From positions 180,120-209,623 of the forward strand of contig WELB01000114.1 of NCBI GenBank assembly GCA_009602725.1: DNA of 29,504 nt. Direction: 5' to 3'. The translations under genes and the position numbers were made by a program. The notes below the pieces were generated by a model, which had not been told where the DNA came from, ran no database searches, and worked only from the letters and a program-made list of their open reading frames with translations. Each line of letters starts with the position of its first letter. The first letter of the stretch is position 1. The stretch comes from Spirogloea muscicola. Lineage: Eukaryota; Streptophyta; Zygnematophyceae; Spirogloeales; Spirogloeaceae. Positions 2,155-28,964 of the stretch are shown piece by piece.

Positions 2155-3290
2155 ACGGTGTGCAGCTCGCTTGCTTCCCGCTGTTCCGCTCCTTGCAATT
2201 TTCATAGCCAATGTAGCCTGGCTCTCATTGCAGCAGAGATGCGGTGGAAGGTGTAAATTAGGCTCCTTCCCCCCCCACCCTCCATGGAGGTCGTCAATGC
2301 CAAGGGCTTGCATCAGGGAGGCCATGCTTGGCGCATCGATCTGCTACGTCGATTCTGATTTGCTGACACGACAACTCCTAGCAAGTAACCCAGTATTGTC
2401 AGGCGCATGCCACGTAAGTACGCCCCAGGATATCCCTGGTCTCACTGGTCAAGTAGATTGATCTAAAAGCACAGGAGAAGGGAGAGGGACAGTCCCAATG
2501 GGGCCCCGCTACTTGGGAGCATGCATTCTGGGAGCAAGCAAGCCCAGCGTCCTGTGCTGTGGTCTATGACTGCTATGTAATGTGAATTTCAGGTTCAATT
2601 TCATGAAGGTCATGTGGAGGTCATCTGTAGCAACCGCTCTGGCCAGTCAATTAAAGGAGAGGTATCGATTTTTAACACACCATCGCACTTGTCTCAGGAT
2701 ACTTTCCTTCTGAGAGTGCAGCATGTGCTTGTAGCGCAACACAACAGCGCTAACAACAACTCATGGACGAGGATCCTTGCCTGGTTCCTGACCTTCTTGC
2801 GCTACTTGGCGCTTCAGTAATGGGAAAGCTCGGAGCCATAGACAGGTCGGAGAGCTGCAACGGCAGTTGCACTGCAGGTGCAGTGAAGGCAATAACTGCT
2901 TGAGTATCAGCAGAGTGCTCAGGACCATATATAGTGCTTAACAATCAATATCCTAGAGAAGCACAATGACGAGTGGGCAGGTCGAAGGCATAGGCACAAC
3001 CTTCAGCGACAGTGACATCTTTTTGGCATGGGTCCTCATTCCCATATCCTACCCGGGAGTACCGCTGGTTTGCAACATGATCGACGTGAGGATGTGCATC
3101 TGGCCGAGATGGGCTTGCCGGCAGCACATTTGTCGTTCTTGCGCAGTTGGTGTCAGCCTGCAAACCAGCTCAGGCCTAGGCTTTGCACTGGTAACCTTCA
3201 GACTGTGGCAGAAGGGATATTGTAACTTGGCTGTCCGGCATATGGACATCAATTAGCATATCTCTACTTTCTCACCCATGTTAGCTGAGG
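2155..3290. other. intergenic stretch, no gene recognised
   Basis: This follows the stop of the MetX-like gene. It probably begins with that gene's 3' UTR. None of the short open frames here resembles a known protein on either strand. I see no RNA gene, tandem array or mobile-element coding sequence before the small insertion at 3308. Confidence 0.6.
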
Positions 3291-3307
3291 CGGATCAGCT
3301 TAGCAGC

Positions 3308-3380
3308 CGACTCCTTCAGACCTTGTCCATTCTTTTGGGCTGGCCTCTCCCAGCCACCAGTTAATCTGGCCGCGCTTGCT
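3308..3380 (+). mobile_element. 73-bp hairpin element flanked by a 17-bp target-site duplication
   Basis: A 73-bp unit is bracketed by a perfect 17-bp direct repeat, CGGATCAGCTTAGCAGC, at 3291-3307 and 3381-3397. The same 73 bases recur at 27084-27156 with a single obvious mismatch, and in the opposite orientation at 26271-26338. It contains the stem GGCTGG/CCAGCC and a second small stem, CCAG-TTAAT-CTGG. It has no coding capacity and no poly(A). Long perfect direct repeats around a unit with one constant end are typical of target-primed reverse transcription. I infer an extremely 5'-truncated LINE tail or a tiny SINE. Confidence 0.8.
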
Positions 3381-3566
3381 CGGATCAGCTTAGCAGCAGG
3401 TGATGTACATCCGCAGATGTGCTTGTCTTTGTACTCAACTACTCAGGCCGCCCTCCATGAAACAACACACGTCTTACCCGTTTGGACGAGCTGGTTCTAC
3501 AGGGGTTCCAAGAGCGAAACAAAGAGCTTCTTTCAACGCAAGGCAATGGCTTTGAGAAAGCAAGTG

Positions 3567-7316: not shown

Positions 7317-10300
7317 TGCCGTAGGCGGGCATGGCTCCCACGCCATAGCCGGCATCGTAGCCCACGCCACCCCCAGGCATGCCCATGCCAGGCATTGGAG
7401 GAGCAGGCAAGGCCAATGGCATCAATTGCTGGTACAGATTCTGCAACACGGTCAAAAGGCATTGACAGTGTTAGAAGCTGAACATAAGCAGAGTGCCTTA
7501 GAAGCATGGCAACCGCCACAATCACGACAGTAAGTGAGCCTGACCTGCTGAGCAATGACCTCCTTCTCCTCCGCTTCCTTGTTCTTCTGCTCCTTCTGCT
7601 GCTCCAGCCTGTTCCGCACGAGTTCGTCCACTTTGCTGGAGTATTCGCGTAGGAACTGGTCAAGCAGCACATGAAGCAGTTAGTGACAGCACTAAGCCTT
7701 TGCTGTCGAGTCAATGCAGCAAGAGATGACTATACGCCTTGAATTGGCTACAGTACAGCACAAATTCAGCAATGGCCTTCACCTGAAGCATGTATGGCAT
7801 GACATATTCAAACATGTTGTGAATCCAGGCAAGCTCAACAGCAACATCAGCCCGTATAAGGTCGTAGCAGGTATACAAACAAGCTGCAAAGCACTCCTTC
7901 TTCCCCTGCCGAACACCAGTTCATGCAGCATCGTCAGAGCGATATAGGGGACAACATCAGGTGCTATGCCGACAGCACTGAGTGCCAGGGTGGCGAATAT
8001 GCATTCAAAAGCCTGTAGAAGTGTGTGAAACAACATCGACCTCGTCCACAAAGAACGTGAGTAACTCCTCCGCAAGTTCGCGATCTCCTGATTGAGATGC
8101 AGTCTCCATGGCGTCTTTGTATAGCTTGTCCTTCTTCGAAAGGGAGACAGACTGTCGCCATCTCCCACTGTTCTTGTATATCGTGGCAGCTATTCTTCGG
8201 AACTCCAAGAGCTCATGCTTCTCAATCTGCAAGGGTGATGCACCAGCTGTGGGCCTTAGAAGCCACAGCTTACTAGCAGTGATGACGTGTGGGACTGACA
8301 ATGAGCCAGTCATGTATGGTTACAATTTGTGGGAAGGGAGGTCAAAGGCTAACCTGTTGTGAAAGGGAGATCTGGTCATAGTTGTCGTGCATGTCAATGG
8401 ATTCTCTCAACCTGTCGTAGTCCTCCTCCTCAATGTAGAGACCATTTAGAGCCTCATTTACAGCTGCAACATTGTTGCTCTGAACAGATACCAGGTAAGG
8501 CTTGACGAGCGGAAGATGTCCAGCCTGCAGAACGTATGCAAACTTAGAACCATGTGTGGAATCTAAAATACAGAGCTTGCTGCAACAATGGTGTACTTTC
8601 TATCATTTGTCGTGCATATCATGTGACTTTGAGGGCTAGGTTTTCCACATGACAGAATAAAATGAGTTGGTTTGTTACATATCATACAATGAAAGACTGC
8701 CAGATGCACATTGGAAGCTGGACATAGACATGTGACACATACACTAGCTTGCAGCTTGACGAGTAAAGGAAACGCAGTCAAAGAAGGCTGCATGGCATTG
8801 GTGCATACCTTCCGCATAATGTCCACCACACGCGTATGATCCACCCGTGGTGCAAGGACATTGAGCATGTCATTGATGAGGTCAGGGTGCTCCTGCAGAT
8901 AGAAATGGACTACTCGGTAGTAGAGCTCAACGTTTGCGATCTTGACAGCCACATCCTTGAACTGCACATGACGATCAGTGATGGAGCTCTGTCAGTCTTG
9001 AACTGCACAGCGAAGTCTGGGCAGTCATCATACAGCACATGCTTGGCCCACTTGAGCGTCTGCAAAATCAGCAGCTAAATCTTGCATGTCATCACCTGCA
9101 TGTGGTCCCACGCTTCAGGAGAATGTGACATGATCGTTGTTGCAGCATTGTCATACTCGTCGTATATGATGTAGAGATAGGTGAGCTCTCGCCAGTGCTG
9201 CTGCTCATCACAGACACGAATGAGCTTTGGGATGTTGAGCCTGGTGGAGAAGAGCTTGAGATGCTCCATGAGCTTCTCAGGCCGATACCGAGCATACAAT
9301 GTGCCCAGCTCCGTGAAGATGCCCATGTGGGCGCGCTCCAGGCCCAGGCCACTCTCCATGAGAGAGATGAGCTCGTCAAAGTAGCCCTTGTTCTGGTAGT
9401 ACTCGCTCACTTCCTCCAGGTCATCAACTTGGACGATGATGTTGAGCCCGCACAGCTGTGCTAGCCGGAATTCCTCCGCGTCTACGCAGGCAAAGCAAAC
9501 CTCCTTCCAGGTGCGCGAGCTGTTGGCCTTGCGAGCTGCATCCACAGCAGCCTGGAACTGGCCCAGTCGCACGAGCGTGGATGCCAAGCGCGCCCAGTTT
9601 GAGATGTGGATGAATATGATTTTGGCTGCCTCGTAAAGCTCCTCGTCAAACATCCTGTCTCCCACGGACTGCAGGTTTGCCACATGGGGCTGTGCAAGGA
9701 ACTCTTCAATGTCCCCAAGGCGGTCAACACGTGCATACGCATAAAGGAGTCCCGCATCCACCCGTGGTTCTCTGACCTTCTGCCGCACCATGAGCAGGTA
9801 AGTGACCAGCTCCTGCCAAACGCCAGCCTGCTCAGCTGCTCGCATAACGTCGACAAACTGGGTTGCATCTTGAGCCCGAATGAAGCTCTCAATGGCCTCC
9901 ACGACCAGACCCTGCCGTAGCTGCGCTTTGCCCACTTGGCTCCAGACATCGTCCTCGTCCACTCGGTTTGCAAATTCAACGGCACGATCAATGCTGCCCA
10001 GATTGTCAAGCAACACATCTACAGCCTTCACATTCAGATTGAACTTCTTGAATATGGCAAAGGCTTCCTCATAGAGCTCTGAGCCGACTGCTATGTTTCC
10101 AACTGCAGGGCCGTCAAAGTTGTCCAAGCGACTGATGTAATCCATGACACGCGACTTGTCTGCTTTGATGGCCGTGAGAATAAGCAGATTCTGCAAGTTG
10201 GGATTCCCGCTGAAAGCACTGTTCTGCAGTACAATCTTCTCAAGGAGCTCAATCAGCTCATGTGGCAAGTCTGCCGTCATGAATGCTTTCACTGTCACTG

Positions 10301-13300
10301 ACACCTGATCCGGGTTCTTGCTTTCAGGCAGAGCCGTTGAGACAACCTGCAACACAAAAGACAAGCCCACCAGTCATGTATGCCATCAATTACTTCTATA
10401 CCATCCACCAAAGTGAAAGTTTACCAACTCACAACTTTTGGCTCCAAATCATGCCTTTTGAATAATTGGCCCACCTATATAGCAGAGTGACAAGATTGCC
10501 TTTACCTGGTCAATGAGTTGCCTGCGGTAGTCATTCTCAGGGTCAAGAACCTTGGCCCAGAGGTCAGGCTCCATCCGCTCAACAACATAACTGCAGGAAG
10601 AGATACAAGAAGTATGTAGAGAGACCTTCGACTCTGAAAGATATTTGTGAACCTACTGGAATCAGGCACAAGGTGAAAACAGAAGTGTGCATCTTGTACA
10701 CCCTGCTAATGGATGCACACTAGCAATGGATTGCTCTGCTGCACACATACCGAGCCTGAAGCTTGAAGAGGGAGTTCTTGTTGGTGACAGCCACCAGCTC
10801 GTCGTCGCAAAGGCCACGTTTGTATGCCACCACCGCCAAAGTAGGGTCTCGCTTCTCACAATACTTGCCGACCACTCGTGAATCGTAGTAGGGATTGGTG
10901 TTAAGGAAGTGCTCTGGGTTATTGTTGGTGTCGATAATGATCTTTCCTAGAGCATTGTGCACATGCACATCTTGGCTTCCCTCGCTCACAAGGTGTTCCA
11001 GGAATTGTGTCAGCAGCCTCAGGCGGTTGCTGCAAAAAACGCGGTACTAAATGAGTACAAGCAGCTAGGTTGGAAGATGAGATAGAGTAGTAAATGCTGC
11101 ACACATGTGCTATAAGGAGTCCTCAAGCTGAGCACTTCTTGAAGCTGTCTGCTGAATGAACTCAGCTTCTGGGTGGGAAAGGCCAAGCTTACCGCTTCTC
11201 ACATTCTTCCACCAAGGGCTCAACAGGCAAGAGCGAGCGCACTGAAAGAATGAGGTTCTTGATGAAGTCCTCTGGACATTCGTCATCCAGTAATTGACCA
11301 ACCACAAGCGGAGCGTTGCTAGGGTTCACCTGGAGAAATGTACAGCGAACTATAAGTTTCAGACTGAGGCTCTACAAATGAATGATGCACACCAAGCGCA
11401 ACAGGAACAATCTGTAGGACCCAGCTCGTGGTCCAAGACGCATGATCGATCTCAGAAAGTCACATACTTTCCTATGACCCATAGGCACGCAAATGACAGA
11501 GCCATGAAAGACGAGTACTCCTCAACCAAACTCAAGTGCAAGCTTACCTTCTGAACATAGCCCTCGATGTATCGCAGCATGTTATTGGAGTATAGATAAT
11601 GGGTAAGATCAGGCACAAAGCCAAAACGATCGCAGACGTTGATGAGAGGACGAGCATCTGGGAGCTTGGAGTCCATCAGGAAGTTCTTCGTCCTCTCTGG
11701 GTCATAGAAATTGGACTCGCGAGTGACCCGTTCAACCTCCTTGATCTGCCCAGTCTTGGCTGCTGCTTCAATGTATTTGAAATGAATCTCAGGGTCCTCA
11801 CTGCAAATATCAATAACATATGAACAAGAGATATATGAGAAGACTGCATGCGGCACTACCAAAGATTAAGAAGGGAGGCATGACAGCTTGGACTAGCCAC
11901 CCAAGGTGACCTGAACATGGCGAGGCTTCAGTGGATGCTTTTTAGCCCCCAAGCGTGGATGCGATGCCTGAATCCTAGGCGTCCCTATTGCAGTACAGCT
12001 GACTGCACCTTGAGGAGAGGTATGAGCCCAAGAAAAAGTAGAGGCCCTCATAAGATTTAAAGTCCTCAAACAATCTCACACACTCAGTAACACCCAACTG
12101 CTCCACATACTCTTTAGCTACCTGTCTTGTCGTACATAGACACAAATTAAAATTAGAAACCTTAACAAAACACTTCATTCTCTCTCATTGCAGTAATCCA
12201 GAACAAGACAAATGAAGTCGAGTATACACAGAGTGTGACCAACTACTATCATTCAGAAGCAATGGCAAGGATGCTCAAAGAGCATGCATTCCAGATGAGC
12301 ATTCACCTGCACAACAATCTGCAAGTTGCCTCGCATGTTGACAAGCAACAGCTCCTTCATGCAGTCTAAAGCCCACTCCTTCGACAAGGTTCCAAAAAAC
12401 TCAACAAGGGCCTGCACAATCACAAGCATATCAAGTACAAATTCTTAGACTGGGCCGCCAGAGATGAGCCAATACATAATATGTTTGAGCAACAATGCAA
12501 GTCGCAGCACGCCTGACCATATACAAGACTTGGCACTTTGGAAGAGAGATTGGGTTACAATGTCAATATTCAATTTAGCTGGAAGCTCACACCTGGGGTT
12601 CAATGGCATGCGTGTTGACTATCACGCGCTTGATGTCAGGCAGCTCTGTGTAGTGCTGCAAGGCGAGAACCCAAACATCAGGACACTTTATTAGAGCAGG
12701 ACAGATTGTCTTCTAGCTGTCAAGATTGGCCCTACACAAGCTGCCTAACGACTCTCAGGTCCAAGTTGTGCAGAACCTCTGTCACGTTTGTGCTTGCCAA
12801 AAGACTCAGTTTGGAACACGTAAGGCTTGAAGCATGCTCCAAAACGCACCTGAAGGGCTCTGGTATAAAGACCAGCCTTCTCACATAGTTGTGCTATCCG
12901 CGGCCGATCGTAGTGAGTGAACATGCCGTTTGCCAATATAGCGTCAGCTACATTTGGGAAAGTGACTAGGTTGATCTCAAGGACCTGGCCACACAGCAAT
13001 TGAATCATATCAGCCGCCTGAAATAAACACCTCTAGGTGACGCAAACAATAGTGGAGTTTCAATGCAGCACCTACTTCTGCGACTAATGACACTCCGGGA
13101 ACATTGACAATGAAGGTGAACAGTACCTTCGTTTGCAGAAGCGCATGCTCTGGCAAATTGGGCTTGAGCACGTCCAGAAGGAAAGACGTTGCTTCCCTGA
13201 TCAAATTACGCTGCATACCAGAGTGCACATGTTCTTTACTTCAGTGCGCCAGGCTGAAGATACCTCACACAAAGTAGAATCCAGAAAACCACGTCAACGC

Positions 13301-18741: not shown

Positions 18742-21700
18742 ATGACGGGCAAGACCAGCCCCACTGGGAGGAAGCTCTTCGCCTCGTCCAGCCTCGCCTT
18801 CACGGGTAAGCCTGGGCTCTCTGCGACCGCCTCCTGGTCGGACGTCCAAGCTTCGTCTGCCTGAGTTGCAGATATGGCTCGTCATGATGGTGACACTGTT
18901 TCAAGATCAGCCAATCGCCTTTGCCTCACATTCTACTTGGCCAGCTGAGCTGAGTCCTCTCATGGCCTTGGCGTCCTTCAGGAGCATTATGTGTGGCGCT
19001 CGTTGTGCTCGGCGTGTGGGCCTTCAGACCACCGCTGCCCAGTATACAGATCGACCAGACAGCTGTGTATGCGGAGGACCAAGCAATAAGGGCAGCGCCA
19101 GAGCAGAGTTTGGAGGTAGAATCCATCTCGGAGGTATGTACGCGTTGGACAGCGTCCATAAGCGTCCTTGCTCTCTGGTTTCTTACAACCATAATCGTCC
19201 TGGACTCAGTTTGGCTTTAGTGCCTTGTGGAGTTGGTGGAAGTTGCTCGCCACCTCTCTATGCTGAGCTCCTGGAAATTGCTGTGATGCTACTCAATCTC
19301 TTGCTTGCACTTGCATCTCGCAGTTAGTGCCTGTGCTTTCACTTCCTACAGCACCTTGTTCCTCCAGTACAAGATGGACATTGATGACAGCAGCCACACT
19401 GCAATTGCTGACAATGTCTGCTTGGCATGCACATAATCAGGACCTGCTCCTCGCTGGAGCCTGTCTGAGTCTGATCTTTTTGCTTCCTCGTCACAGCTTG
19501 ATGACAGCCTAGACCCGTCCTCCTTTCTGAAGGCAAAGCCCCAAACGCCAACAAACGACGACTCAAGCACAGTACCAACTCCTACCGTCAGCGAGTCCAT
19601 CGACACCGACGTCAAGGATGCGCTTGAGAGCCTTGCGAAGATGGAGGCCCAGGAACTACGCGAGGAAGTAACAACATCAAAGCAAGACCAGCAGGAGGAG
19701 TCAGGCCCTGACTTGGAGGTCTGTCAAGCCTATGACATCGTCATCTGCTAATCTGTCCATCGGCCGCCATTGACCTGCTTCCTGTATGCTTCACTTGGCT
19801 TATTCCCAGGCATTATACTCGTGTTCATGAGCAATTTCACTTCTCTCCAGGAAAGCAAAAGCGTCGCAGATGCTTCTCAAGGTGGAGAAGCAGCAGGTGA
19901 AGCCTTGAATGAGGTCCTTGAGCCTGCTGGCAAGAGCGTCGATAGCCAAGGCGAGGACAAGGTAGACGAAGGTGGCGATGGAGAAGCAGCAGGCGAAGCC
20001 ATTAATGAGGTCCCTGAGCCTGCTGGCCAGAGCGGCGATGGCCAAGGAGAGGACAAGGTAGACAAAGGTGGCGTTGGAGAAGTAGCAGGCGGAGCCACAA
20101 ATGAGGTCCCTGAGCCTGCTGGCCAGAGTGTTGATGGCCAAGGCGAGGACAAGGTTGTCGAAGGCGGCGACGGAGAAGCAGCCAGCGAAGCCGTGAAAGA
20201 GGTCCCTGAGCCTGCTGGCCAGAGTGTCGATGGCCAAGGCGAGGACAAGGTTGTCGAAGGCGGCGACGGGGAAGCAGCAGGCGAAGCCTTGGATGAGGTC
20301 CCTGAGCCTGCTGACCAGAGTGTCGATGGCCAAGGCGAGGACAAGGTTGTCGAAGGCGGCAATGCAGAAGCAGCAGGCGAAGCCTTGAATGAGGTCCCTG
20401 AGCCTGCTGGCCAGAGCGGCAATAGCCAAGGCGAGGACAAGGTAGTCGAAGGCGGCGACGGGGAAGCAGCAGGCGAAGCCTTGAACGAGGTCCCTGAGCC
20501 TGCTGACCAGAGTGTCGATGGCCAAGGCGAGGACAAGGTTGTCGAAGGCGGCGATGCAGAAGCAGCAGGCGAAGCCTTGAATGAGGTCCCTGAGCCTGCT
20601 GGCCAGAGTGTCGATGGCCAAGGCGAGGACAAGGTTGTCGAAGGCGGCGACGGAGATGCAGCAGGTGAAGTCGTGGACGAGGTCCCTGAGCCCGCTGGCC
20701 AAAGTGGCGATAGCCAAGGCAAGGACAAGGTAGTAGAAGGTGACAATGGAGAAGCAGCAGGCGAAGCCTCGGTTGAGGCTCCTGAGCCTGCTGGCGAGAG
20801 CAGCAATAGCCAAGGCGAGGACAAGCCAGACAATGGAGATGACGGTGAAGCAGCAGGCGAAGCATCAAAGGAGGTTCCTGAGCCTGCTGGCGAGAGCAGC
20901 AACAGCCAAGGCGAGGACAAGGTAGACAAAGGCGGCGATAGTGAAGCCGGAGGTGAAGCCTCGAGTGAGGTCCCTGAGCCTGCAGGCCAGAGCGACAACA
21001 GCCAAGGCGAGGACAAGGTAGATGAAGCTGATCATGCACTGATAGGAATAGATGTGATTAAGAAGAAGCCTCAGATTATCTTACGAGTCATGGACAAATC
21101 CTTGATATATTGCTAATATGATGGGGATAGGGTGCAGGACAAGGGCCACCAAGAGGAGCAAGGAGGCCAACTCGAGTCTCCAAGCAATGTGGAGGAAACT
21201 GGACATGCAGGCGAGGTAGAGGTGGCGAGTGCGACCAAGGAAGCAGTTGGGGCCAATGCAGAGCTTGACAACGAAGCCAAGGAGAGCCCTTCGACTGATC
21301 TTGCCACGCAGAGAACAGAGTCTATAGTGGAGAACACATTCGAGAAGGGGCCTGATGGTGCAGGTATGTCAGTATGCTCCACTCTCAAGCACTTGTAGCT
21401 CTGCAAATGCTTATATTGCTTCCTTGGGATGCCACGGCCTTCTTCTATTGCTTTGCACTTTTATGTGGCTTGTTCTGCAAAACCCAAGATATCAATACTT
21501 CATAGTCTGGATGTGAAGCTGCACAGTCACATTCAGAGAATGTGTACAATCACTTGAAAGCATCGTACATACTGAAGAACGTCACACTACTGTCTTGCTT
21601 GCAGGCGCAGAGCAAAGTGTGGCAAGTTCTCAAGCTGGGGCTGGACAAGGAGAAAATCTGGTCCAAGTTGTGGATGACGAGACCGAGAGCCACGATTATC

Positions 21701-26040: not shown

Positions 26041-26270
26041 GCACGAAAGTGCAATTTTAGAAGGAAGCCAAGTTCGTATTAGAACAATGGGGGCCCTGAT
26101 TGTCTAGATTTTAAGGCAACGATATGTACAGATGTACATCACCTAACTGCTGAGCTGACCCGCTCAGCAATCACAATCAGCAAATAGAGATTGCTAACCA
26201 CTGCCCAAATTTCGGAGAGAGGATTTCTCAAGCTCTTCTGCCACCAATTAAAATACGGTCAAGAAAGAAG

Positions 26271-26338
26271 GCGCGGCCAGATTGACTGGTGGCTGTGAGA
26301 GGCCAGCCCAAAGGAATGGACAAGGTCTGAAGGAGCCG
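26271..26338 (-). mobile_element. near-full copy of the 73-bp hairpin element
   Basis: Read on the minus strand, this gives CTCCTTCAGACCTTGTCCAT, the GGGCTGG...CAGCC hairpin, CCACCAGTCAATCTGG and CCGCGCC. It therefore matches the whole 73-bp unit at 3308-3380 apart from a few substitutions and its last bases. The second stem CCAG...CTGG is conserved despite a T to C change in the loop. Confidence 0.75.
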
Positions 26339-26410: not shown

Positions 26411-27080
26411 ATGCAAATCAGAACAGCTAGCAGGCGGACAGACGTCCAGCTTTCTGGTGCAAAGCATGAGCTCCGAGAGCTCCAAACTGCTCAAAGAGCT
26501 CAAGTGAGACCCGAAGGCCCCGTGGACATCGTTGGCCAGTGGGACGAGCTCGTCCTCCTTCCGTGCTGCAAACGAGCTTACACTGGAGCATCTCCGGAGT
26601 CTCCTCCAAGGAGATGCCAGGCTCGGCTCCTATCTGTTTCGTCTCTAGGAGCGTCTGAGTGGCTCCGCGCTTTGCCTCTGCATGCGGGCTTGCGGATTGA
26701 AAAGGCTTTTATTTGCGATGCTATGCGCCGCCGTCTTGGCTTAACATCCCTGTGCTTGGCAGGGTGACCCAATGTGAATGTGGGCGTATTGAGCACGATG
26801 CATTGCTCGTGGGTGACCACATGCTCAGGTGTGCCAAAGGCAGCGAGCGCACGGGCTCCCACAACCTCCTACGGGATGCGTTGTATGGCATCGTCAAGGA
26901 GGCGGGATATCAAGTGGCGTTGGAGAGCACCGGGGTGGTGCCCGTCCAACTCCTCAACGGGGTCCCTCGGCCGAAGCCTGTCGATCTGGTCGGCGTCCCC
27001 TTGGGAGCGGCTCCTCATGGACGTCGTCCTAACCGACGGCTTCCGGAAGAGTTCGCTTACTGCTGTCTCAGTCCTTAGCA
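26411..27080 (+). pseudogene. LINE reverse transcriptase C-terminal fragment, frameshifted
   Basis: This is the C-terminal part of a non-LTR retrotransposon reverse transcriptase protein, downstream of the polymerase domain, which is missing. GASEWLRALPLHAGLRI and MRRRLGLTSLCLAG are in one frame up to a stop near 26765. The reading then shifts to RVTQCECG, a Cys/His cluster CECGRIEHDALLVGDHMLRC, and RTGSHNLLRDALYGIVKEAG. A second shift near 27000 leads to RLLMDVVLTDG. This order (Cys/His knuckle, 'RxHxxLRDAL', then 'DVxxTD') is common in algal LINE proteins. At least two frameshifts make it non-functional. It is followed at once by a hairpin module, as expected for the element's 3' end. Confidence 0.7.
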
Positions 27081-27083
27081 CTC

Positions 27084-27156
27084 CGACTCCTTCAGACCTT
27101 GTCCATTGTTTTGGGCTGGCCTCTCCCAGCCACCAGTTAATCTGGCCGCGCTTGCT
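27084..27156 (+). mobile_element. 73-bp hairpin element, second copy
   Basis: This is nearly base-for-base identical to 3308-3380 (one obvious C/G difference in the spacer before the hairpin). The stem is GGCTGG 27114-27119 with CCAGCC 27126-27131. Its right end (CCGCGCTTGCT) is the same as in the 3.3 kb copy. GCTTCCGGAAGA occurs at 27039-27050 and again at 27154-27165, overlapping that right end. This suggests a direct repeat around a version extended at its 5' side. Confidence 0.8.
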
Positions 27157-27165
27157 TCCGGAAGA

Positions 27166-28060
27166 AGAAAGAAGAAGTGGCTCTCCCAACGGGGGCAAGG
27201 GCTGTGAGAAGCCAGCCCGAAAAGAATTGACAAGGTTCGAAGGGGCCAAACTACGAGCTAAGCAGCGACTGCGGGGCCTGAAGAGGCTATGGTAGAACGG
27301 GGGAGGATGGACCGCTTAGTAGTTACGAGTGAGGAGCCTCACATCCGACAGACTAGCTGCCGGTAAACTATCCCCCTGACGAAAACCGGAGGCCGCAGCG
27401 AGAGCACGGCCAGCACGCAGATGCAAAAAGAAGGAACAGAGTACGAGAACGGGGCCAGGGGAAGCGCTAAGAAGAAAAGCACAACAAGAAACAAAGCAGC
27501 TACGTATTACTCAGTAACCCCTGCTAAGCAGCCTCAGGTCAGAGATGATAGGCTCCTGGAGGTGGGTCCCCTGGCCAGAGCCAGAGGCAGCAGCGTGGGC
27601 TCTGCCGGCACGCAGGTGCAGCGCGCGGGCCATAGACCTCTGCAGCGAGACGGCCAAGCGCATCCGGTACACCTGCGCTAGCGACCCGGCTGCAGGAAAA
27701 TTTACTGGCTCCCCATGGAAGGGGCGGACGATGGCGTGGCGGGTGTGTTGGTTGAGCAGCTCGAGCCACCGAGCGCCCAACGCCCCATGCGTGTCGATAG
27801 CCAGCGGGAAGAACTCGTCTTCCCGCGGATGATCAGCATATTTGAGCTCCTTAGCTCGAACGGCGCAGGCTACCGCATACCCAGCCTTGATGGCACATTG
27901 GGCTGGGTGTGAGCGGTCTTATGCGTCTGTGGTCACCACGTCCAGGATAAGACGTGGCCCGCCGGCTTGTGGGGTGGCCACAAGGTCTACACGACGTGCG
28001 CGGAGACCGTCGGCCCTTTGCTGGAGCGGCATGAAGAAGGACCCCGTAACTTCTGAGACC
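27166..28060 (-). pseudogene. minus-strand LINE 3' end: reverse transcriptase C-terminus plus 3' UTR with hairpin
   Basis: Reading the minus strand from about 28060: MPLQQRADGLRARRVDLVAT, GGPRLILDVVTTDA, a TAA stop at 27919-27921, then in the same frame IKAGYAVACAVRAKELKYAD, REDEFFPLAIDTHGALGARW and LAQVYRMRLAVSLQRSMARA, with a final stop at 27511-27513. Apart from the single internal stop the frame is intact, so this is a fairly young copy. About 270 bases past the stop come the core CCTTGTCAATTCTTTT and the hairpin GGGCTG/CAGCCC (27248-27182). That ties the hairpin module to the LINE 3' UTR. The 5' part, including the polymerase domain, is missing: the copy is cut at about 28060, where an opposite-strand copy begins. 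Confidence 0.75.
27441..27606 (-). repeat. direct repeat, copy 1 (LINE tail)
   Basis: About 166 bases beginning GTACGAGAA and ending GGCTCTGCC closely match 28546-28712 (same orientation, few substitutions and small gaps). They cover the last codons and proximal 3' UTR of the minus-strand LINE. The shared core is CAGCTACGTATTACTCAGTA. Confidence 0.9.
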
Positions 28061-28500
28061 GGCTATGCCGTGAAGGTGGCCGAACAGAAGAAGTTGCACA
28101 AGGACAAGGACCACCCGGCGGGTGATACCTTTTACCCCCTGGCCACGGACATCCACGGGTGTTACGGCGGTCGGTGGTCCTCGTTACTTCGGCTGCTGGC
28201 ATCTCAGGCTGACCAGCGGCGCCGGGAACAGGGTGCAGCACTTCCTGGAGGCTCGGTGCCTTTGGGTCTTGTGTCCTGCTACCGCATGCGATTGTCTATG
28301 CCCCTCCAGCGCTCCCAAGCGCCGGTCGCGCCCTTGCAGCAGCCTCTGGCTTGCGCAGCGGGGTTGCTCTTCCTCCCCTCAGCTCATCTGACTTCCTACT
28401 GCTGACCCGGGGGTACTGAGAGCGCCCTGTCTGCCTAGCCTGTGGCTCCGTCAAGAACACCTGTATGCATCTGGCTGGCTTTCACAGCCGCTCTTTCAAT
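28050..28500 (+). pseudogene. plus-strand LINE 3' end: reverse transcriptase C-terminus plus hairpin
   Basis: The frame ending at 28405 reads GYAVKVAEQKKLHKDKDHPA, GDTFYPLATDIHGCYGGRW and CYRMRLSMPLQRSQ. This parallels the minus-strand copy's GYAV...K...DHP..D.FFPLA.D.HG....RW and YRMRL..SLQRS. It is clearly a diverged relative of the same protein tail. A GGGTACTGAG motif just past the stop is shared with the other copies. The hairpin GGCTGG-CTTTCA-CAGCC lies at 28473-28489, so again the module follows the coding tail. The 5' part is absent. Confidence 0.7.
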
Positions 28501-28545: not shown

Positions 28546-28964
28546 GTACGAGAAGGGGGCCAGGGGAAGCGCTAAGAAAAACAAGCACTACAAGAAGCAA
28601 AGCAGCTACGTATTACTCAGTAACCCCTGCTAAGCAGCCTCAGGTCAGAGAAGCTGTGCTCCTGGAAGTGGGTCCCCTGGCCAGCCCCAGAGGCAGCAGC
28701 GAGGGCTCTGCCTCTGGGTCTTGGCAGAGTGCCTCTTTCCCTGCAGCGGGCTACTCAGACCTGATGTTGCTCACTCGTGGGTACTGAGCTTCCCTCTGCA
28801 TCGTTTCTGTGTTCTGCAGTGTTTTGTAGTGTAGTCCTTTTTCCGGCTCCTCTTTCTTTGGCTTTGGACATTGTCCACTCTTTTTTGGGCTGGCTTTGCC
28901 AGCCCCTCTTCTCTATGGGCGCGCACTTCTTCTGCCGGCACGCAGGTGCAGCGTGCGGGCCATA
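28546..28964 (-). mobile_element. second minus-strand LINE tail, interrupted by a nested insertion
   Basis: Bases 28546-28712 repeat the LINE tail at 27441-27606. In that copy the sequence continues directly with TCTGCCGGCACGCAGGTGCA. Here the continuation is found only at 28931-28964 (34 bases, one mismatch). The two halves are separated by about 218 foreign bases. The bases (T)CTGCC occur at both edges of the interruption. Confidence 0.75.
28713..28930 (+). mobile_element. nested LINE 3' end with an 8-bp perfect hairpin
   Basis: These 218 bases split a minus-strand LINE tail. They contain CTCGTGGGTACTGAG, as just past the stop of the 28.4 kb copy. Next comes a T-rich 3' UTR, TTGGACATTGTCCACTC, then the best hairpin of the window: GGGCTGGC (28887-28894), loop TTT, GCCAGCCC (28898-28905). 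The short edge duplication TCTGCC (28707-28712, 28931-28936) fits insertion by target-primed reverse transcription of a heavily 5'-truncated copy. Confidence 0.65.

Follow-up and report, generated by a model that had tools for sequence, protein, structure and literature searches.

We analysed a 29,504-nt stretch of the Spirogloea muscicola genome (contig WELB01000114.1, positions 180,120 to 209,623 of the forward strand), hereafter called the window, and made all genome-wide counts over the assembly of 153 Mb in 471 contigs. Matches to the chlorophyll-binding domain numbered 68, and one exon matched chlorophyll a-b binding proteins in the PDB, which points to a green-lineage host. In the window, the sequence CGGATCAGCTTAGCAGC is present at 3291–3307 and again at 3381–3397 with 17 of 17 bases identical, and a 73-bp unit that ends in ..GGCCGCGCTTGCT lies between the two copies. 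The initial annotation had read this as a perfect 17-bp duplication around the unit, which is correct, and its statement that there is neither coding capacity nor poly(A) is true of the 73 bp itself. The surrounding sequence is a fragment of the 3′UTR of another LINE family (family H), whose two parts, 3280–3307 and 3398–3435, are split by the insert and the second copy of the target-site duplication (TSD). An exact flanking repeat of 17 bp is far beyond chance: in a matched control, for which right flanks were taken from other copies, repeats of 12 bp or more were found in 4 of 6,006 mismatched pairs.

The unit recurs almost unchanged near the other end of the window, as had also been noticed. 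The copy at 27084–27156 differs from it at 1 of 73 bases, and the inverted copy at 26338–26271 differs at 4 of 68 and reaches 26266 at 91.8% identity over 73 bp. The 27084 copy carries its own TSD, TCCGGAAGA, which becomes 12 bp long when the GCT common to the element end is included, and therefore the insert there is 106 bp (27051–27156) rather than 73 bp. Decayed ORF fragments of the same LINE lineage lie just upstream of this second insertion. The features related to the insertion are collected in Table 1. Among the seven frames of the window that were scanned, the clearest host gene was a clathrin heavy chain exon-like frame at 9075–10370 on the reverse strand (Pfam Clathrin, 2e-90; PDB match, 1.4e-172). 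A 448-aa frame at 19770–21116 on the forward strand gave a Cornifin score of 6.2e-18 over three stretches, possibly from a low-complexity repeat.

Table 1. LINE-derived features in the window (positions are those of the window).
Feature	Position	Strand	Basis
Left 17-bp TSD copy	3291–3307		Exact repeat; part of a family-H LINE 3′UTR; similar sequence unbroken at five other places
73-bp 5′-truncated 3′ tail of a family-A LINE	3308–3380	+	Longer copies continuous with LINE 3′UTR and ORF; predicted fold
Right 17-bp TSD copy	3381–3397		Exact repeat
Insertion host, family-H LINE 3′UTR fragment	3280–3435	+	BLASTN with joined flanks; related sequence after LINE stop codon in L027
Paralogous empty site, family-H sequence without insert	26113–26197	−	75% identity over the junction
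Third, older family-A tail	26266–26338	−	91.8% identical
Decayed LINE ORF fragments, same lineage	26495–27015	+	tblastn with family-A ORF; two stretches, 41% and 49% aa identity
Second family-A insertion, 106 bp	27051–27156	+	TSD TCCGGAAGA at 27042–27050 and 27157–27165
Family-B LINE tail	27171–27244	−	98.6% identical to the tail behind a nearly complete family-B frame, L109
Decayed LINE C-terminus, family D by 3′UTR start	27514–28104	−	54.5% aa identity; 2 in-frame stops; KELKY motif
Family-C LINE tail	28860–28933	+	92%

We then followed the unit into longer copies. Thirty copies from the fetched loci and the window start at the first base of the unit, and five of them were taken as references. 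With locus L011 as the reference, 22 of the 29 other full-unit copies were collinear upstream and broke off 31 to 1,086 bp before the unit, and seven, including the copy at 3308–3380, had no upstream match. L011, on contig C248, has a frame of 921 aa in which residues 196–396 match the RVT_1 domain (E 1.5e-14), and the last codon of this frame lies 38 bp before the unit. Because the unit is continuous with the frame at this distance, the 73 bp represent the terminal 73 nt of the family-A LINE 3′UTR, which is about 110 nt long. The initial annotation had regarded the unit as a mobile element of this small size, a view that does not hold, since 73 bp is one of many truncation lengths of a longer LINE. 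It had also named membership in a longer conserved gene as counterevidence; the unit does belong to something longer, namely the parent LINE, and this leaves the reading as a LINE tail unharmed. Among the 50 genomic matches listed for the parent ORF (scoring covered 49 of 17,296 first-look candidates), 33 span residues 1–921 without a stop, in open frames of 921 to 1,558 aa, so intact-looking parents exist.

Versions of the hairpin tail are carried by at least four related LINE families (A to D); the tails clustered into four groups with at least 15 members each, corresponding to these families, plus many singletons. With at most one mismatch allowed, the family-A tail-end motif was found at 3,114 places, and three tail-end motif sets together were found at 3,114 + 6,350 + 3,749 = 13,213 places, while the reversed-pattern controls gave 0 in each case. 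The reading as LINE tails thus accounts for a type of repeat that is abundant in this genome, and such fragments would easily be misannotated as SINEs, MITEs or satellites.

The copies share their right end and differ at their left end. In the larger loci and the window, the 3′ end was kept at 28 of the 31 places that have the left core, and the left core at 28 of the 41 that have the 3′ end; the larger loci had been picked by good matches to the unit and are therefore biased towards complete units. When loci were sampled by the 3′ end, the 3′ end was kept in 26 of 32 and the left part in 26 of 64. Several copies without the 3′ end (at L078 and L090, for example) owe its absence to interruption by another tail and not to 3′ truncation. 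Genome-wide counts of exact 23-mers taken from one subfamily were 765, 299, 124 and 28 for starts at 23, 106, 300 and 800 nt from the 3′ end, with 0 occurrences of the reversed controls; divergence of the subfamily with distance may contribute to this fall, the direction of which is clear. A constant right end with a variable left end, proposed beforehand as the mark of LINE-type reverse transcription, was accordingly the pattern found. At L078 and L090, family-B elements lie inside family-A tails with duplications apparent by eye (TCTCCCAGCC in L078 and CCAGCCACC in L090), and tails therefore act as targets for other tails.

Copy lengths were estimated at 65 of 100 listed places (25 of 25 on contig C1, 18 of 21 on C2, 22 of 26 on C5 and none of the 28 on C3 and C4). 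At least three of the seven places omitted on C2 and C5 match over 80 bp, so the sample is slightly biased to short copies, and since the listed places are exact matches, older copies are absent from it. A rough rule flagged 14 of the 65 copies in which the break is probably due to a later insertion and not to truncation. The 51 uninterrupted copies had a median of 114 bp and no dominant size, and they ranged from 23 to 413 bp, the upper value being bounded by the fetched stretch; 13 were at most 60 bp long, 25 were at most 100 bp long and two reached the limit of the fetched stretch. This median replaces an earlier value of 82 bp for all 65 copies, which was too short because copies interrupted by later insertions were included. 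All lengths are estimates whose breakpoints can be off by several bases, the copy at 3308–3380 having measured 82 bp against its actual 73 bp. Truncated LINE copies are typically 100 to 1,000 bp long according to a section of a review (PMC3747384), and relative to that range the copies in this genome are at the short end.

These lengths bear on the other origin that the initial annotation had considered, a very short SINE, that is, an independent small RNA with a LINE tail that uses LINE machinery. Copies as short as 23 bp with a LINE tail do exist, and sharing of the 3′ end with a partner LINE is described as well known for SINEs in part of the same review (PMC3747384). A SINE would, however, be hard to reconcile with a length distribution without a dominant class, and the upstream sequence shared among the copies is LINE 3′UTR and ORF, the longer copies entering the LINE reading frame. 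A common non-LINE head was not seen by eye in the 65 copies. We consider a SINE very improbable and did not retain it.

We then asked how often the copies are flanked by direct repeats. From 104 copies, 78 were used after exclusion of 14 flagged copies, five that were too long for the fetched stretch, one near an end, five with N and one with a duplicate flank. Exact flanking repeats of at least 7 bp were found in 25 of these 78 copies compared with 110 of 6,006 mismatched flank pairs, and none of 5,000 shuffles reached 25 copies with a TSD, the maximum being 8. With the flagged copies kept, the count was 26 of 93 at the same threshold versus 25 of 1,860. The examination of flanks that the initial annotation had suggested thus did reveal direct repeats. 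The exact TSDs were 7–11 bp long in 24 of the 25 copies, and the remaining one, at 3291–3397, was the longest with 17 bp. The 53 of 78 copies that lack an exact TSD of at least 7 bp may owe this to age, imprecise breakpoints or target deletions. A pyrimidine (T or C) was the first base behind the 3′ end in 57 of the 65 sampled copies and the first base of the TSD in 21 of 25, which may reflect either a preferred target or base pairing between the target and the end of the RNA.

Hairpins, TSDs and a high copy number would also be found with a MITE-like DNA transposon or another hairpin element moved by a transposase. The exact TSD length nevertheless varies from 7 to 17 bp, terminal inverted repeats were not seen by eye, and the copies have one fixed and one variable end and are continuous with an element that encodes a reverse transcriptase (RT), so that we assign transposase-mediated movement a negligible probability.

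When the flanks of the insertion at 3291–3397 were joined, they matched five other places over the junction without the insert (window 26197–26113, L084, L027, L015 and L010) with 75–85% identity; these empty sites are paralogous copies in one assembly and not orthologous alleles. At L027, the family-H sequence lies behind a related LINE frame, following its C-terminal end and stop codon. The five insert-free sites and this context together indicate that the family-A tail landed in the 3′UTR of a family-H LINE copy. Given the fixed 3′ end, the variable 5′ end, the excess of TSDs and the insert-free paralogous targets, we conclude that 3291–3397 is very probably a severely 5′-truncated family-A LINE insertion made by target-primed reverse transcription. 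The minimal LINE tail that the initial annotation had offered as one possibility is thus borne out, with the fixed right end, the variable left end and the direct repeats all present.

The target of this insertion contains CTTAGCA, which is similar to the sequence of the element immediately upstream of the break and may be a microhomology. It could be taken as a trace of ectopic duplication or microhomology repair, in which the unit would be filler DNA and the 17-bp repeat a product of staggered-break repair; it is general knowledge that short repeat fragments can be captured at breaks. Captured fragments would be expected from any part of the LINE, whereas the 3′ end was present at 28 of 31 left-core places and the counts dropped with distance from it, and the preference for T or C behind the 3′ end in the sampled copies also stands against capture. 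Such an origin is in our judgement extremely improbable.

The insertion by target-primed reverse transcription would have proceeded as follows. The LINE protein would nick a site in the 3′UTR of the family-H LINE and recognise the tail RNA, perhaps by its hairpin; reverse transcription would then start at the RNA 3′ end and halt once 73 nt had been copied; and a second cut at a distance of 17 bp, followed by fill-in, would leave the 17-bp duplication. The second cut and fill-in are taken from the general model for LINEs with a restriction-like endonuclease (RLE) as outlined in part of PMC6895275. The copy at 3291–3397 was dead on arrival and by itself serves no function.

The 73-nt RNA was predicted to form two stems, GGCTGG/CCAGCC (3338–3355) and CCAG/CTGG, with a minimum free energy of −17.1 kcal/mol. 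The initial annotation had likewise counted two potential stems, yet the stability of the fold is ordinary, with no excess over shuffled sequences (z −0.34; 66 of 200 shuffles were at least as stable). The hairpin GGGYTGG..AGCC was present in every one of the 19 3′ ends that were fetched from LINE copies judged complete or nearly so, out of the 50 listed matches to the parent ORF; at L111 and L116, the hairpin tail resembles a later insertion or exchange. In 12 hand-chosen tails, four of the seven main-stem pairs were invariant and none of the seven was changed on both sides. RNAalifold on the same tails yielded a second stem of 3 bp, with one pair changed on both sides in three rows, which is too weak to claim as a real structure. 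A pseudoknot pairing the hairpin loop with a GAGC further downstream, which had looked promising by eye in several tail families, was rejected by a permutation test (p 0.34) in which partners were exchanged among 97 tail representatives after 24 tail-like places had been removed by hand; the tail common to L113, L114, L115 and L117 also lacks most of the complementarity by eye.

The tail RNA is perhaps recognised through this hairpin. In the ZfL2 elements, which are stringent-type LINEs, the endonuclease is an APE. The short 3′ tail with a predicted stem-loop found here is like that of ZfL2-1 and ZfL2-2, which the LINE protein binds in ZfL2 according to a portion of PMC4176376. A role for the hairpin is proposed because of this binding in stringent-type LINEs, and covariation gives it no support. 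Unlike the lineage described here, the ZfL2 elements belong to the L2 clade (PMC4176376, in part); the stem here is without changes on both sides, and the tail binding cited is that of ZfL2.

We next considered the endonuclease of the parent LINE. The C-terminal region of its ORF contains a Cys-His motif, D-X14-D and KX2KY (KERKY). The motif spacing of RLEs is PD-X(12-14)-D/E; D-X14-D is present here, with A, V or L in place of the P in the aligned fragments. In six aligned fragments, the first K and the Y of KX2KY, which lies downstream of the RT, were invariant and the second K was variable. This fits the description of RLE LINEs in part of PMC5678591, where the first K of KX2KY is the catalytic one and the second K is less conserved. 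The Cys-His motif, with a spacing of CX1CX12HX3C by eye, did not match the knuckle CX2-3CX7-8HX4C published there as preceding the endonuclease (PMC5678591). A solved RLE such as that of R2 was not found in the PDB by sequence comparison, as a single-sequence search returned 0 hits and a profile search (profile A1) returned only a designed helical protein (E 0.12). A frame of 1,517 aa on contig C411 showed two CX2CX12HX3C (C2HC) fingers near its N-terminus by eye, and a Pfam domain was not found in the N-terminal 626 aa of this one frame, where there is therefore no recognised APE. Judged from these motifs, the endonuclease is most likely restriction-like, of the type of the R2, NeSL and HERO elements.

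The parent LINE is like the RLE LINEs (R2, R4, CRE, NeSL/Utopia and HERO) in having one long ORF with N-terminal Cys-His fingers (one frame, by eye), RT, a further Cys-His motif and a C-terminal KX2KY, and the same domain order is given for Utopia in a section of PMC4640811. The TSD size range of the lineage also fits those of R8 (9 bp) and R4 (13 bp), as reported in part of PMC6895275. The lineage differs from the RLE LINEs in its dispersed insertions and in its zinc-motif spacing; most RLE LINEs are target-specific, and HERO is a clade with many non-specific members, according to passages in PMC4640811. RandI/Dualen is a LINE group listed for green algae, with 3′ repeats that are not poly(A), as summarised in a section of PMC3747384. 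Dualen, for which a passage of PMC4640811 gives both APE and RLE, is unlike the parent LINE, in which the 626 N-terminal residues of the C411 frame contain no recognised APE.

The insertion is not new in kind, being real and having an ordinary cause; what is notable is a lineage that is dispersed and extremely truncated. RLE-type LINEs are known mostly from site-specific elements, and the lineage here is apparently RLE-type and dispersed. About half of the sampled uninterrupted copies were at most 100 bp long (25 of 51), with a minimum of 23 bp. One may tentatively suppose, although we think it rather doubtful, that an RLE-type LINE lineage in a green-lineage genome lost its target specificity and fills the genome mainly with micro-copies, a few dozen nucleotides of cDNA being routinely enough for a completed insertion with TSDs. 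If this were true, tail recognition and the second-strand steps would be separable from processive reverse transcription. The copy set offers a natural experiment on the minimum length of a LINE cDNA that still integrates, in an apparent RLE-type LINE. A paper describing this element was not recognised in the literature searched, which is not proof of its absence.

Other RT-encoding sequences were encountered in the same assembly. The RT loci L029 to L036 were considered as the parent and rejected; L029, the one scanned, is a Gypsy-type LTR element, whose long open frame includes protease, RT, RNase H and integrase. Frames of 1,237 aa were present in nine of the ten best RT matches of the genome. 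At L064:341-463 (reverse strand) and L067:6-176 (forward strand), what comes after other LINE frames of the lineage is a hairpin-free sequence (..TTTCATTTCATGCGCCCCGCGCG..CCTTCTC) that may be a further type of tail. Finally, L013 and L016, on two contigs, share a pair of tail copies together with their flanks, representing a segmental duplication or an unmerged haplotype.
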